The notes under the pieces were generated by a model that had not been told where the DNA came from, searched no databases, and saw only the letters and a list, made by a program, of their open reading frames with translations. A DNA stretch of 64,000 nt from Candidatus Gemmiger faecigallinarum (GTDB lineage: Bacteria; Bacillota; Clostridia; Oscillospirales; Ruminococcaceae). The translations under genes and the position numbers were made by a program. Shown piece by piece: positions 8,267 to 62,166 of this stretch. The DNA lies in NCBI GenBank assembly GCA_019120395.1, contig DWVD01000027.1:38205-102204 (forward strand), written 5' to 3'. Numbering within the stretch: the first letter of the stretch is position 1; the number at the start of each line of letters is the position of its first letter.

Positions 8267-10327
8267 TCAGCCGACGGCCGAAACGGCGATGCCGTCCACC
8301 TGCACCGGCGCATCGCCCAGCGTATGGATCTGCACCCGCCACCCGATGACCGGCTCGCCCACCGTAAACTGAAACACCATCCGGTCTGGCTCGCCGCTCA
8401 GGAAAACAACCTCCTGTTCCACCCACTGGCCATCCGCATTCCGGAAGCCACTGTGGATATAGCTGTTGTCCAAACCTGCTCCGGTCAGCGTCACTGTGTA
8501 CTGTCCCGGCTGCAGCGTCCACTCGTTGGTGGAAATCATCTCCCCAGGGGCAATGGATACCCCCGCCGCCGAAATAACTGTCGCGTTCCCCTCCTGGTCG
8601 GTCTCGCACCGGGAAAGGTCCGCCGCGACTGGCTGCACGTCCGCCTCCGGCAGCGGCAGTTCCACTACGCTGCCCAGCAGGACCCCGTCAACGCGGTAAA
8701 AGTGCAGCTGTCCTGCCAGACGGCTCTGCTGCAACTGACTTCCGTCCAGAAACACATAAAGCGCATCGGATTCCAGCTCGTTCAATTCCCCTTGAATGGT
8801 CCTCTGCAGCAGGTCGCCCTGCAAGTGAGCCAGGTAAAAGCCGTTGACCGTCCAGCCGTTTTCTGCCGCCCATGCCACCAACGGCCAGTATTCCGGCGCG
8901 TCGATGTCATAGCTTGCAAACATCAGGTGCGAAAACTGACCACTGTCGGCCAGCTGCTGCCATGCCTCGCTTTGCAGCGGCGTCTCGCTGCGGTACAGTG
9001 TATCGTCGCGGAAGGCTGCCGATTTATCTGTAAGAAACTCCGCACGCCATCCCACCTGTACAACGATGCAGGCCACCAGCCCCGCCAGCCCGACCGTGCG
9101 GCCAAACCTCAGCAGCAGCCCGCTGGCCACGACCAGAAGCAGGTACCCGGCCAACCAGGCCAGCCGCCCGCAGTTGGCAAATGTATGCCAGAAATTGTAC
9201 AGGAACGTTGGCAGCGGCAGTGTACCCAAGCTGATGCCGCCCACTACAAAAGTGTTGGAGCAAGCCGCCAGCAGACTGAGCAGACCGATCAGCGTACCGG
9301 AGACCAGCCAGGGCAAACGGCTGCGCAGCGCCACCAGCACTCCTGCCCTGCCGCGTAGACACTGCACAAGCCCTGCCGCCAGCGCCAGAAGCGCCGCCAG
9401 CAGGACGCCCCACCCCACAAAGATGTCCACCTCCCAGGTGGAATACAGGCCGGGGACCACAAGGTTGAGCGGATCGGCCCCCACAAACCAGCCGGACGGA
9501 TCGGTGTTTGCAAAGTTTCCGGAGAACGCCCCCAGCACAAACAGTTCTGCCAGCGCACATCCGCAAAAACTGGCAACTGGCAGAAGCGCCGGCGCAGGGC
9601 CGTCCCGGCGCATCAGCCGGACGACGGCATACCCCACCGCGCAGATGCCCACCATGGGCAGGTAATATTGGTGGACGCCCACGCACAAAATACCCGCCAG
9701 CCCCCACCAAAGGCAGGAGCGGACGGCGCTTCCGCGGCAACACAGCCAAAGCCACAGTCCCAACAGAATCAGCCAGTTCCCCGCCAGCGCGGTATGGGCA
9801 AACATTCGTACCGTCAAGACCGGGTAAAGCAGCGCCAAAATCGAAGTCGCCACTGTCCCCACACGTACGGCTGCACCGCGCTCCTCCGCGCCCGAGACCC
9901 TCCACGCAATTTTTTGGGCCAACAGCCCCTGCAAAGCAAAGCTGACAAGTCCCCACCAGCCCAGATACTGGAACCGCGCCGGCAAAAGCGTCGCCAGAGG
10001 TCGAAATAACAGCGCCAGCAGAGGGATTGAATCAGAATACAACACGCTGACCCGGTAGGGATAAACCGTGGCGTAAGACAGTCCCAGATAGGGCAGCCGG
10101 ATCTCACTGTTGCGGTACAGCGCCCAGCCCAAATAATGCTGCGAGGGGTCCGCCCCGCTGTTCAGGATCCAGTCCACGTTGGTGGGGTCCAGCACCTGAA
10201 CGCCGTACAGCACCAGGAAAAACGCCGCCCCCACCAGCGCGGCGGCCAATGCAAAGGCATTGCGGTACGCAGCACTGCGTACCGCACCGGCAGGCCGGCC
10301 TGCCGGTCGCGGATGGAAAAACTTCAT
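8267..10327 (-). CDS. large membrane protein resembling DUF6311/glycosyltransferase-type integral membrane proteins
   Basis: N-terminal many-TM region with 'DWILNSGADPSQHYLGWALYRNSE', C-terminal soluble beta-rich domain. Confidence 0.65.
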   Translation of the reverse strand: MKFFHPRPAGRPAGAVRSAAYRNAFALAAALVGAAFFLVLYGVQVLDPTNVDWILNSGADPSQHYLGWALYRNSEIRLPYLGLSYATVYPYRVSVLYSDSIPLLALLFRPLATLLPARFQYLGWWGLVSFALQGLLAQKIAWRVSGAEERGAAVRVGTVATSILALLYPVLTVRMFAHTALAGNWLILLGLWLWLCCRGSAVRSCLWWGLAGILCVGVHQYYLPMVGICAVGYAVVRLMRRDGPAPALLPVASFCGCALAELFVLGAFSGNFANTDPSGWFVGADPLNLVVPGLYSTWEVDIFVGWGVLLAALLALAAGLVQCLRGRAGVLVALRSRLPWLVSGTLIGLLSLLAACSNTFVVGGISLGTLPLPTFLYNFWHTFANCGRLAWLAGYLLLVVASGLLLRFGRTVGLAGLVACIVVQVGWRAEFLTDKSAAFRDDTLYRSETPLQSEAWQQLADSGQFSHLMFASYDIDAPEYWPLVAWAAENGWTVNGFYLAHLQGDLLQRTIQGELNELESDALYVFLDGSQLQQSRLAGQLHFYRVDGVLLGSVVELPLPEADVQPVAADLSRCETDQEGNATVISAAGVSIAPGEMISTNEWTLQPGQYTVTLTGAGLDNSYIHSGFRNADGQWVEQEVVFLSGEPDRMVFQFTVGEPVIGWRVQIHTLGDAPVQVDGIAVSAVG

Positions 10328-11208
10328 CGGTCAAACGTCGTCGAAAGGGTGGTGGACCAGCTTTCGCCCTGCTTCAGGCTGGCGGCGCAGGGGCGGTTTT
10401 CCCACTCCAGGGGGCCGTTCTCCTCGCCCGGCAGGCTGTGCCACGGCTCGATGCAGACAAAGCGGGCGGGCCAGTCCGGCTGCGACCAGATCAGCACATA
10501 GGGGTAGCCCTCGATGTCGCAGCTGACGCGCCGGCCGGTGTCCTTTTCCACAATGGCAAGCGACTTGGAACGCAGATTCAGCATGCAGTGGCTGTCGTTG
10601 GCAAACAGTTCCTTTGTCAGCGGCACACGGCGGGTGTTGCGCGCCAGATAGTAATATTTGGTACCGTTGAGCAGGCCGTTGGGCCGCGCGCTGACGCACA
10701 GCGGGCTTTCCAGCTCCTCAAAGCGGAACTCGTAATCCTCGGCGGTATGCTTGTCGTCAAAGGGGATGGCAAACGCGGGATGGAAGCCGATGCCAAACCG
10801 CAGCTGCGGCTCGACGGGGTTTTCCACCGTCAGCGTGTGGTGCACCGTGACGTCCTCCAGCACAAAGGTGGAGCGCAGCACAAAGGCGTAAGGCCAGCGG
10901 GGCAGCGTCTGGTTGTCGGCATGCAGCTCAAACTCCAGCGTATCCGCCGTCTGCCGGGTCAGCGTATGCTCCACATCGCGGGCAAAGCCGTGCTGCCCGC
11001 CGGTATACTCCAGCCCCTTGGCGATCATTTTGCCGCCGGTCAGCTTGCCGGTATAGGGGAACAGGATCGGCGCATGGCGGCCCCACACCGACGGGTCGCC
11101 GCACCAGAGCATCTCGACCCCGGTCCGCTTATTCACAACGCTGACCGCCTCGGCGCCCTTGCTGTCGACCGTCAGGCGGATCTGTTCGTTTTCGATCGTA
11201 TACTGCAT
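10324..11208 (-). CDS. aldose 1-epimerase family protein (galactose mutarotase-like)
   Basis: MQYTIENEQIRLTVDSKGAEAVSVVNKRTGVEMLWCGDPSVWGRHAPILFPYTGKL...; start set at MQYT. Confidence 0.85.
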   Translation of the reverse strand: MQYTIENEQIRLTVDSKGAEAVSVVNKRTGVEMLWCGDPSVWGRHAPILFPYTGKLTGGKMIAKGLEYTGGQHGFARDVEHTLTRQTADTLEFELHADNQTLPRWPYAFVLRSTFVLEDVTVHHTLTVENPVEPQLRFGIGFHPAFAIPFDDKHTAEDYEFRFEELESPLCVSARPNGLLNGTKYYYLARNTRRVPLTKELFANDSHCMLNLRSKSLAIVEKDTGRRVSCDIEGYPYVLIWSQPDWPARFVCIEPWHSLPGEENGPLEWENRPCAASLKQGESWSTTLSTTFDR

Positions 11209-11391
11209 AGTTTTTCCTCCCCGCCGGGTTCTCCGGCACTTCATTGCGGCCGCCTGCGCCCCGGCGCGCCAGGCGGACCGGACAGGCGGGATACCGGCTG
11301 TTTTTCAGCCGCACCCACAAAAATATTCCATTTTCAGTATACCGCAAAACACGTAAATTGCAATGGATTTTGGCTTTTTTGCGCAAAACGG

Positions 11392-11420
11392 TTGACAGAC
11401 CGGAAAGGTGTTGATATACT
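11392..11420 (+). promoter_or_regulatory. consensus sigma-A promoter for the met leader/metQNI
   Basis: TTGACA (11392-11397) - 17 nt - TATACT (11415-11420). Confidence 0.85.
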
Positions 11421-11471
11421 TTTATCCAACAAAACCGCCCGCCGGGCGTGTCAGGGAAGGAGATGCCGTCG

Positions 11472-11561
11472 ATGTACCGTCGTGATGGCATGATGATGTG
11501 CATGTACAGTATGCTGCGGCAGCCTGTGCTTGCTTCCCTGTGCGCGATTTCCGACGTGTGA
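11472..11561 (+). CDS. methionine-rich leader peptide MYRRDGMMMCMYSMLRQPVLASLCAISDV
   Basis: SD AAGGAG 9 nt upstream of ATG; 6 Met in first 14 codons incl. ATGATGATGTGCATG; ends just before an intrinsic terminator and metQ. Confidence 0.75.
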   Translation: MYRRDGMMMCMYSMLRQPVLASLCAISDV

Positions 11562-11576
11562 TCCAGGGACATTTCA

Positions 11577-11612
11577 AGGCAGGGCGCCGCAGGCGCCCTG
11601 CCTTTTTGTTTT
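11577..11612 (+). terminator. intrinsic terminator / putative attenuator between leader peptide and metQ
   Basis: AGGCAGGGCGCC-GCA-GGCGCCCTGCCT then TTTTGTTTTG. Confidence 0.9.
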
Positions 11613-11837
11613 GTCCGGCCCCGTTTTCAAAACGGGCCTGCGGTTTTGCCGCGGCGCAGCCGCCTTGCCCACACCACCAAGGGAGGAAACCAGCCATGCA
11701 AACCGGTCCCGCCTGCAAACAGCCCGGCGTGCGAATGTGCGCCAGGCGCCCCCTCTGCCCGATCGCCCGCCCCGCCTGGGCCGCGGCGTCCCAAACACCC
11801 AAAACACAGGAATAACAGCTATTTTGGAGGAAACACC

Positions 11838-12752
11838 ATGAAAAAACTGATCTCTTCCCTGCTGGCGGCTTCGCTGGCACTGAGCCTGGCCGCCTGCGGC
11901 GGCAGCGCTTCGTCCGCATCCGGCGCATCTTCCACCGGCAGCGCGTCCGGCGCTTCCGACGAGACCGGCGCCCTTACCGGCGACGGCTTTGACGAAAGCA
12001 TCGACTACGCCGCGCTGGACGGCACCACCATCCGGGTGGGCGCCTCCCCCACGCCCCACGCCGAGATCCTGGCCGTGGCCGGCGACATCCTGTCCCAGGC
12101 CGGCATCACGCTGGACGTCGTCGAGTTCACCGACTACATCCAGCCCAACACCGCCACCGAAAACGGGGACCTGGACGCCAACTACTTCCAGCACCAGGAT
12201 TACCTCAACACCTTCAACGAGGAAAACGGCACCCATCTGGTCTCGGTGGCCGAGATCCATTACGAGCCCCTGGGCCTGTACCCCGGCAAGACCCAGAGCA
12301 TCGACCAGCTGGCCGACGGCGCGCTGATCCTGGTCCCCAACGACACCAGCAACGAGGCGCGCGCCCTGCAGCTGCTGGCCGATCAGGGCCTGATCGAGCT
12401 GGACCCCGACGCCGGCCTGACCGCCACCCAGAACGACATCACCTCCAATCCCAAGAACCTGCAGATCCAGGAGATGGAGGCCGCCCAGCTGCCCCGCAAC
12501 CTGGCCAGCGCCGACATGGCCGTCATCAACGGCAACTACGCCACCCAGGCGGGCTTCTCCTCCGCCAGCGACGCTCTGGCAGCCGAGAGCGCCGACTCTG
12601 ACGCCGCGCAGATCTATCCCAACGTGCTGGTGGTCAAGGAAGGCCGCGAGACCGACCCCGCCATCCTGGCGCTGGCCGCCGCGCTGCAGAGCGACGCCGT
12701 GCGCGACTACATCAACGAGACCTACGGCGGCGCCGTGGTGCCGCTGTTCTGA
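11838..12752 (+). CDS. metQ: MetQ/NlpA-family methionine ABC transporter substrate-binding lipoprotein
   Basis: MKKLISSLLAASLALSLAACGG lipobox; 'PHAEIL', 'FTDYIQPNTATENGDLDANYFQHQDYL'; SD GGAGG; followed by metN and metI. Confidence 0.92.
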   Translation: MKKLISSLLAASLALSLAACGGSASSASGASSTGSASGASDETGALTGDGFDESIDYAALDGTTIRVGASPTPHAEILAVAGDILSQAGITLDVVEFTDYIQPNTATENGDLDANYFQHQDYLNTFNEENGTHLVSVAEIHYEPLGLYPGKTQSIDQLADGALILVPNDTSNEARALQLLADQGLIELDPDAGLTATQNDITSNPKNLQIQEMEAAQLPRNLASADMAVINGNYATQAGFSSASDALAAESADSDAAQIYPNVLVVKEGRETDPAILALAAALQSDAVRDYINETYGGAVVPLF

Positions 12753-12962: not shown

Positions 12963-13973
12963 ATGATCGAGCTTAAACATCTAACCAAGCATTTTGAGAC
13001 CAAAGCCGGCACCGTGGCCGCGCTGGAGGACATCAGCCTTTCCATCGCCGACGGCGACATCTTTGGCATTATCGGTATGTCGGGCGCGGGCAAGTCCACG
13101 CTGGTACGGTGCATCAACCTGTTGGAGCGGCCCGACTCGGGCAGCGTCACCGTCAACGGGCAGGACATGCAGAGCCTTTCCCCCACCGCCCTGCGGGCGG
13201 CGCGGCGGGACATCGCCATGATTTTCCAGCAGTTCAACCTGCTGATGCAGCGCACCTGCCTGAAAAACGTCTGCTTCCCGCTGGAGCTGGCAGGCCGTCC
13301 CCGGGCGGAGGCGGAGGCCCGCGCCCGGCAGCTGCTGGAACTGGTGGGCCTGCCGGACAAGGCCGACGCCTACCCGGCGCAGCTGTCCGGCGGGCAGAAA
13401 CAGCGCGTGGCCATTGCCCGCGCGCTGGCCACCGACCCCAAAGTCCTGCTGTGCGACGAAGCCACCAGCGCCCTGGACCCCAACACCACCCACTCGGTGC
13501 TGCAGCTGATCCAGCAGATCAACCGGGAACTGGGCATCACCGTTGTGGTCATCACCCACCAGATGAGCGTGGTGGAGGACATCTGCCGCCATGTGGCCAT
13601 CTTGGACGGCGGCCATGTGGTGGAGCAGGGCGACGTGGCCGAGATCTTCTCCAACCCCAAAACCGACGCCGCGCGACGTCTGGTGTTCCCCGCCGGCGCG
13701 CCCCGCGGCGAGGGCGAACTGCTGCCGGGCCGGCGGATGGTGCGGGTGGCCTTCAACGGCACCCAGACCACCGACAAGCCGCTGGTGGCCAGCCTGGCCA
13801 TCGAGTGCAACGCGCTGGTCTCCATCGTGGCCGCGGACACCCGCGTGGTCAACGGCCAGACGCTGGGCAGCATGCTGCTGGCCCTGCCGGAGGACGAGGC
13901 CGCGGCGCAGCGCGCCATTGATTACATCCGGGCTTACCCCGGCCTGAGTTTTGAGGAGGTGGAACAGGCATGA
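12963..13973 (+). CDS. metN: methionine ABC transporter ATP-binding protein
   Basis: MIELKHLTKHFETKAGTVAALEDISLSI...GMSGAGKSTLVR...LSGGQKQRVAIARAL, C-terminal NIL domain. Confidence 0.95.
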   Translation: MIELKHLTKHFETKAGTVAALEDISLSIADGDIFGIIGMSGAGKSTLVRCINLLERPDSGSVTVNGQDMQSLSPTALRAARRDIAMIFQQFNLLMQRTCLKNVCFPLELAGRPRAEAEARARQLLELVGLPDKADAYPAQLSGGQKQRVAIARALATDPKVLLCDEATSALDPNTTHSVLQLIQQINRELGITVVVITHQMSVVEDICRHVAILDGGHVVEQGDVAEIFSNPKTDAARRLVFPAGAPRGEGELLPGRRMVRVAFNGTQTTDKPLVASLAIECNALVSIVAADTRVVNGQTLGSMLLALPEDEAAAQRAIDYIRAYPGLSFEEVEQA

Positions 13974-14668
13974 GCGCGATCTTTGCATCGGACGAATGGC
14001 AGACGATGGTATCCATCCTGCCCGACCTTCCCTTTGCCACCTGGGAAAGCTTTTACGCCACCGTGGTCACCACGGTGCTGGCGCTGGTCATCGGCCTGCC
14101 GCTGGGCGTGCTGCTGGTGGTGGGCGACCGGGACGGCCTGCTTCCGCTGCCCCGCTGGCTGATGGCTGTGCTGAACGTGGTCATCAACCTGCTGCGCAGC
14201 GTACCGTTTTTGATCCTGATGATCATGGTGCAGCCGCTGGCCCAGGTGATCCTGGGCACCACCATCGGCACGGCGGCGTCCATCGTCCCGCTGGTGGCGG
14301 CGTCCTTTCCCTTTGTGGCGCGTCTGGTGGAGACCAGCCTGCGCGAGGTGGACGGCGGCGTGATCGAAGCCGCCGAGAGCATGGGCGCCAGCCCCTTCCA
14401 GATCATCGCCAAAGTCATGATCCCCGAAAGCCTGCCCAGCCTGATCGCCAACGTGACCATCGCGCTGACCACCATCCTGAGCTATTCCGCCATGGCCGGC
14501 ATCATCGGCGGCGGCGGCCTGGGGCAGATCGCCATCAACTACGGGTACTACCGTTACCGCTACCTGACCATGGTGGTGGCCACCGCGCTGCTGGTGGTCC
14601 TGGTGCAGCTGTTCCAGAGCATCGGCACCCGGCTTGCCGCCCGCTGTGACAAGCGGCTGCGCAAGTAA
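13970..14668 (+). CDS. metI: methionine ABC transporter permease
   Basis: 'SFYATVVTTVLALVIGLPLGVLLVV', 'EAAESMGASPFQIIAKVMIPESLPSLI'; overlaps metN by 4 nt. Confidence 0.95.
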   Translation: MSAIFASDEWQTMVSILPDLPFATWESFYATVVTTVLALVIGLPLGVLLVVGDRDGLLPLPRWLMAVLNVVINLLRSVPFLILMIMVQPLAQVILGTTIGTAASIVPLVAASFPFVARLVETSLREVDGGVIEAAESMGASPFQIIAKVMIPESLPSLIANVTIALTTILSYSAMAGIIGGGGLGQIAINYGYYRYRYLTMVVATALLVVLVQLFQSIGTRLAARCDKRLRK

Positions 14669-62089: not shown

Positions 62090-62166
62090 GCGGTCGTAGC
62101 TCAGCTGGATAGAGCGTTGGACTCCGACTCCAAAGGCCAGAGGTTCGAATCCCCCCGGCCGCACCA
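62090..62166 (+). tRNA. tRNA-Arg (anticodon CCG), T-stem with two A-C mismatches
   Basis: GCGGTCG acceptor, D-arm, TTGGA-CTCCGAC-TCCAA anticodon arm, TTCGAAT T-loop, encoded CCA. Confidence 0.85.

Follow-up and report, generated by a model that had tools for sequence, protein, structure and literature searches.

The metQNI operon of Candidatus Gemmiger faecigallinarum, which encodes a methionine importer, is very probably controlled by a ribosome-mediated transcription attenuator that senses the supply of Met, and probably also that of Cys, through Met and Cys codons in a short leader peptide. Methionine control in Bacillota is usually put down to SAM riboswitches, Met T-boxes, or DNA-binding repressors, and the leader described here appears to be an example of a broad, largely unrecorded class of sulfur amino acid leaders. 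The window, i.e., the whole stretch of DNA that was analyzed, spans 64,000 nucleotides, and all positions refer to it. The parts of the putative attenuator, their conservation, the covariation of the terminator, and the mutually exclusive pairings predicted for the RNA are taken from sequence; translation of the leader, the identity of the sensed tRNA, and the response of readthrough to tRNA charging are all inferred.

The metQNI operon and its leader peptide

A sigma-70-type promoter, TTGACA-17-TATACT, matching 11 of 12 consensus positions, was found at 11392 to 11420 (this and all features described below lie on the + strand), with TTGACA at 11392 to 11397, a 17-nt spacer in which TG precedes the -10 element, and TATACT ending at 11420. 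In the congeners whose upstream DNA was aligned, a TTGACA/TATACT-like pair occupied the equivalent position. Since the upstream neighbor gene (10324 to 11244) is divergent, this promoter serves the met operon. Pfam identified the downstream genes as metQ, encoding a methionine-binding lipoprotein (11838 to 12752; PF03180, NlpA lipoprotein, E 6.8e-87), metN, encoding an ATPase with a C-terminal NIL domain (12963 to 13973; PF00005 and PF09383), and metI, encoding a permease (13970 to 14668; PF00528, BPD permease).

Ribosome-mediated attenuation calls for an ORF with its own start, Shine-Dalgarno (SD) sequence, and stop between promoter and operon, and for a conserved run of codons for the operon's own amino acid. 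Both were present. The SD AAGGAG (11457 to 11462), read directly from the sequence, is followed by the leader ORF, ORF1 (11472 to 11561), encoding MYRRDGMMMCMYSMLRQPVLASLCAISDV*, in which the putative control codons ATG ATG ATG TGC ATG (Met-Met-Met-Cys-Met, MMMCM) occupy 11490 to 11504. We located metQ in relatives of the same genus and counted the 21 genomes with readable sequence upstream of it: ORF1 was conserved and the MMMCM run invariant in all 21, and the SD was AAGGAG or AAGGGG in most. The residues preceding the run varied by clade (MYRRDG, MTCIERRDG, MNRSSRFG, MVRTHRIG, and MNAVCFG), as did the spacer between stop codon and terminator among congeners, while the run-to-stop distance was 23 codons in all but two genomes (24 and 20). 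This fixed length between shifting flanks indicates that the reading frame is kept. Even without counting conservation, five or more non-initiator Met residues in 28 codons would be expected with a p of ~6e-4 at a Met frequency of 2.5%. An NCBIfam search with eight leader or ORF2 peptides (ORF2 is described below) gave no match.

No known RNA regulator accounted for the leader. At gathering level, the Rfam search of the window gave no match except a tRNA at 62090, far from the leader, and with relaxed thresholds, the region 11300 to 11900 yielded no credible family, the best matches at E ≤5 being unrelated and below cut-off. By the Rfam covariance models, the leader is not a member of the S-box or other SAM riboswitch families, and the region upstream of metQ does not qualify as a T-box (RF00230); the identical search did detect T-boxes at two other Oscillospirales metN loci. 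The promoter, the SD, the Met-rich ORF, and the metQNI genes had all been described in an earlier note on this DNA, and each was borne out, as was its statement that neither an S-box nor a T-box could be seen. The note had proposed Met-sensing attenuation and named three findings that would refute it, two of which failed to do so: the Met run proved invariant across the genus, and no SAM riboswitch or T-box was present. Sensing of Met alone remains unsettled, as Met and Cys may both be sensed.

Competing hairpins and the proposed mechanism

Folding predicted three hairpins, P1, P2, and P3, in all 21 sequences. P1 (11500 to 11533), the putative anti-antiterminator formed by strands 1a and 1b, was part of every minimum free energy fold, and its 5' arm starts within the control codons. 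P2 (11535 to 11569) covers the end of ORF1 and its stop codon. P3 (11576 to 11604) is an intrinsic terminator of 13 pairs followed by TTTGTTTTG, with a very strong predicted stability of -20 to -32 kcal/mol, and it stands between the leader ORF and the first gene as attenuation requires. The alternative antiterminator that is also required, one using the terminator left arm, was supported by folding and conservation: strand 1b (11517 to 11532; segments CGGC, CCTGT, and CTTG) is predicted to pair with strand 3a (11575 to 11589), the terminator left arm, which was defined by folding and pair counts. With the terminator right arm (3b) withheld and the segment that a ribosome stalled in the run would cover left out of the fold, 3a paired with 1b around an intact P2 in 21/21 folds, leaving P2 within the antiterminator loop. 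In the window, the predicted pairs are 11517-11520:11586-11589, 11523-11527:11579-11583, and 11529-11532:11575-11578.

Pairs were counted in a 17-row alignment. In the terminator stem, 98.8% of cells were paired, 6 of 10 pairs showed changes on both sides (22 such changes in total), and the covariation score exceeded that of all 500 shuffles. For P1, 98.9% of cells were paired compared to at most 45% when the strands were slid, and for the antiterminator (1b:3a), 90% compared to 28 to 64%. No two-sided covariation was observed in the antiterminator in this alignment, which is expected of strands that must satisfy three pairings, although the evidence is missing all the same. Column 58 of the alignment (in 3a) is A or G, each of which pairs with the U at column 36 (in 1b), and 3b changes in step; the A-to-G change thus turns the antiterminator pair into a wobble without breaking it, and 3b covaries. 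At 7 of 10 Gemmiger loci, the antiterminator failed to outperform shuffled versions of its GC-rich segment (threshold p ≤0.05), and the argument for Gemmiger therefore rests on conservation across genomes. Support for the predicted antiterminator consists of conservation and thermodynamics, and the pairing pattern is not independent proof of it. The perfect terminator of the earlier note was confirmed, and the competing helix it had drawn by hand was recovered by our independent fold with four more pairs (11517-11520:11586-11589). The covariation that the note had proposed to test in both structures was found in the terminator only, the antiterminator being conserved in 21/21 sequences without it.

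In the mechanism we propose, transcription would start just past 11420 and ORF1 would be translated co-transcriptionally. With charged tRNA-Met plentiful, the ribosome would reach the stop codon and cover P2, P1 (1a:1b) would re-form behind it, and 3a would be free for 3b, so that the terminator at 11576 to 11604 halts transcription. With charged tRNA-Met or tRNA-Cys scarce, the ribosome would wait in the MMMCM run with its footprint masking 1a; the freed 1b could then pair with 3a around P2, no terminator would form, and metQNI would be transcribed.

There are no expression, ribosome-profiling, or Term-seq data for this model, and thus no measurement of regulation. In addition, with 3b absent and no ribosome present, 1b:3a pairing was still predicted, at 0.57 to 0.92. 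The off state must therefore come about either because P1 folds first or because the strong terminator, once complete, prevails, and the default outcome depends on folding kinetics, which lie outside the thermodynamic folds used. Met starvation also lowers initiator fMet-tRNA, and severe starvation may leave the leader without ribosomes; this raises the question of how an attenuator can report Met scarcity although initiation itself requires Met.

Met/Cys leaders at other loci and alternative readings

We collected 35 metN loci from other Oscillospirales genomes via the NIL domain, which avoided a motif-based choice, and scanned them for a short ORF followed by a terminator, in which a stretch of eight codons includes three or more Met and a Met plus Cys total of four or more. 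Such leaders were found on the sense strand at 10 of the 35 loci and at none on the antisense strand, which served as a control. One of the ten precedes metY and the others metN or metQ, for example MTICGFVMMMAMFMCGMMMM and MRKEETTMMMQCAMMCRMSAMMCG (both before metN) and MKKITAMMMEMCMCGRMCMAF (before metQ). The wording of the peptide varied among genera while its Met richness was kept. A strand of the ORF was complementary to the terminator left arm at p <0.05 in 6 of the 10 leaders tested, these being nine of the original ten and one relaxed match. The earlier note's proposal of leader attenuation before met transporters is thus supported by independent Met-rich leaders with terminators at metN and metQ in other families. 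T-boxes were present at 2 of the 35 metN loci and a SAM riboswitch at none; the Met/Cys leaders (10, one before metY) were the more common element.

The 70 metF loci gave two matches on both strands together, one of which was a genuine leader, MGRFGQNSNMMMCMCGMMMRSALFGVLRSRRV with a terminator before metF, in another genus of the family. A general metF element was rejected, as within the family a leader was found upstream of metF in that one genus only. Several ATGATGATGTGYATG matches in the family were dismissed as chance, lying inside genes or antisense to them. For the remaining genes of the Gemmiger genome, the search for leaders relied on pattern matching alone.

A wider scan of 85,462 species genomes for ATGATGATGTGYATGTGY (MMMCMC ORFs) gave at least 118 stretches, compared to ~31 expected by chance from simple arithmetic, and at least 80 loci. 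Among the matches listed, with Gemmiger excluded, a terminator followed the ORF in 37/63 cases compared to 20/854 random stop positions drawn from the same DNA (p 2e-34). Several loci are closely related, and the p-values therefore over-count independent events; about one-third of the 80 listed loci lacked a terminator and may be chance matches. The hosts among the matches listed belong to Bacteroidota, Synergistota, Chloroflexota, Bacillota, and other phyla, and include Flavobacterium, Marinilabiliales, Melioribacter, Fretibacterium, Anaerolineae, and Clostridia. Downstream genes, identified via Pfam, NCBIfam, or plain sequence similarity to genes so identified, were in the matches listed mostly sulfur amino acid genes (cysK, cysH/cysD, cysJ, a siroheme synthase domain, sulfite reductase, metY, metN, and cystine-type permeases), along with genes for an OsmC protein, a hydrolase, and a GNAT protein.

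Several local patterns were seen in these matches. At four loci of Flavobacterium and relatives, an MMMCMCC leader and terminator precede a PAPS/APS reductase gene, and the ORF contains a strong antiterminator strand (p 0.005). At four Marinilabiliales loci, cysJ or siroheme synthase genes are preceded by a leader of the MMMCMCCxSFLQKERS type, and in two of them the terminator arm CCTTCTGCAA has a complement, TTGCAGAAGG, within the ORF. A cystine-type amino acid permease lies downstream at four Clostridia loci, three of which have the leader MTASKNTCMMMCMCGSCGRALVRYALKSC.

The reading that best withstood these data, apart from the one we favor, is that of a genuine attenuator whose signal is the joint supply of sulfur amino acids, or chiefly that of Cys (via tRNA-Cys), rather than Met. 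The Cys codon within the run is invariant in all Gemmiger leaders, the genes that follow MMMCMC leaders elsewhere include cysK, cysH/D, cysJ, and those for cystine-type permeases, and there is precedent for Cys leaders both in Actinobacteria (PMC1262725) and before cysS (PMC8632094). However, the genes regulated here encode a Met importer, the ratio of Met to Cys codons across the control runs in other Oscillospirales leaders is ~59 to 18, and Tyr replaces the second Cys in 5 of 20 distinct Gemmiger sequences. The motif of the wider scan was itself picked to hold both residues, and the set it selected is therefore uninformative on how often Met and Cys co-occur. We consider a joint or Cys-led sensor unlikely but still possible. 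Met dependence is inferred, and given the conserved Cys codon, sensing of Met only is not established; Met and Cys may both be sensed.

In a second reading, the hairpin terminates transcription constitutively or acts as an insulator, and the ORF is either noise or a functional microprotein, for instance, a metal-binding one. Met/Cys-rich peptides are able to bind metals, and the predicted terminator is very strong. The terminator nevertheless sits between the operon's own promoter and metQ, with the upstream gene divergent, and the ORF of every congener retains a strand complementary to the terminator left arm. Such a strand was also significant (p ≤0.05) in 22/38 distant loci among the matches listed, and the genes downstream are mostly for sulfur amino acids; we therefore regard this second reading as highly improbable. 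That the leader RNA is a metabolite-binding riboswitch (for SAM or Met) with an incidental Met run is scarcely credible, for although the 46 nt spanning the run and P1 show strong conservation and structure within Gemmiger, no Rfam SAM family was matched in the window, other genera have Met/Cys-rich peptides in common but differ in RNA sequence, and the three ATG codons 5' of P1 are invariant in Gemmiger though most folds leave them unpaired.

ORF2 and relation to known control systems

Between the terminator and metQ lies a second mini-ORF, ORF2 (11696 to 11815; core MQTGPACKQPGVRM), recognized by sequence conservation. Its core reads M-(E/K)-(R/T)-(G/S)-P-x-x-(K/R)-Q-P-G-(V/I)-R-M, followed by UGA or a Cys codon, and was found upstream of metQ in 27 genomes of the genus; the strict pattern was absent from 196 family genomes of other genera. 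The codons for Gln, Pro, Gly, and Val show synonymous variation, but Arg is encoded by CGA throughout; although CGA was demanded by the search pattern, it is also present in all 20 congeners that had been collected independently of that pattern. Among the 21 aligned congeners, all of which keep the attenuator, a single genome has lost ORF2. At eight loci, ORF2 is directly followed by a hairpin with the conserved loop TTGAGGGA and a variable stem, into which the end of ORF2 pairs in several clades; in some clades, the 5' side of the hairpin includes a CGAATGTG motif, and in loci with this hairpin, a C-rich, G-poor stretch precedes the metQ SD. It is plausible that ORF2 encodes a second regulatory peptide, possibly an arrest peptide, but its function is untested. 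Gemmiger metQNI might then carry two consecutive sensors, the Met/Cys attenuator, of a class that recurs in several phyla and was earlier represented only by isolated examples, and then ORF2 (QPG[V/I]R-Met with its obligatory CGA) as a nascent-chain or codon-stalling peptide acting on the readthrough transcript; we put this forward tentatively, as a hypothesis that could well prove wrong.

Neither NCBIfam nor Rfam holds a model that matches the leader element, and similar leaders stand at cysteine and methionine genes of several phyla among the matches listed. Annotation pipelines would need such an element to predict the genes it controls in many gut and environmental bacteria.

The earlier note had put the system forward as a candidate for an undescribed one, and this holds in part. 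The open-access literature yielded no account of Met leaders linked to terminators, or of how widely they occur, so that novelty is provisional, but a precedent for a Met leader exists and Cys leaders are known. In Streptomyces lividans TK24, a predicted Met leader peptide, metL, which contains ARCMCRRMCAF, was proposed upstream of metNIQ in 2021 without a clear terminator (PMC8079986). metL is a leaderless ORF that lacks an intrinsic terminator and, as far as the accessible part of that report goes, comparative support, unlike the leader described here with its terminator, predicted antiterminator, and conservation across genera. Actinobacterial Cys leader peptides have no obvious terminator, and a conserved structure was not seen at methionine operons there (PMC1262725), while the Cys leader uORFC-8-2 before cysS in Rhodobacterales ends in an intrinsic terminator (PMC8632094). 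These leaders share with ORF1 the placement of sulfur amino acid codons in a short upstream ORF, but contain Cys codons only and belong to different genes. The Bacteroid-trp leader RNA (RF01692) is an instance of leader-peptide regulation in Bacteroidota, home of many MMMCMC leaders, but it concerns tryptophan rather than Met/Cys, and its single match in the scanned loci lay elsewhere on the contig. The S-box (SAM-I) riboswitch and the Met T-box have the same target genes in Bacillota and the same transcription-termination output; they bind a ligand or a tRNA, however, whereas the Gemmiger element is a leader ORF, inferred to be translated, and neither of them is present here.

The closest counterparts are the classical attenuators, trpL, hisL, leuL, thrL, and ilv in Proteobacteria and the leucine-rich attenuator peptide of Staphylococcus aureus (PMC5794164). 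Like them, the Gemmiger leader combines an SD and a short ORF with repeated codons for the amino acid that the operon handles, and its predicted anti-antiterminator, antiterminator, and terminator are mutually exclusive. It differs in that the control codons are for Met and Cys, leaders of this kind occur in Bacillota, Bacteroidota, Synergistota, and Chloroflexota, a whole hairpin (P2) is nested in the antiterminator, and a second conserved mini-ORF follows the terminator. The proposed mechanism is classical, while the amino acid and the range are new.
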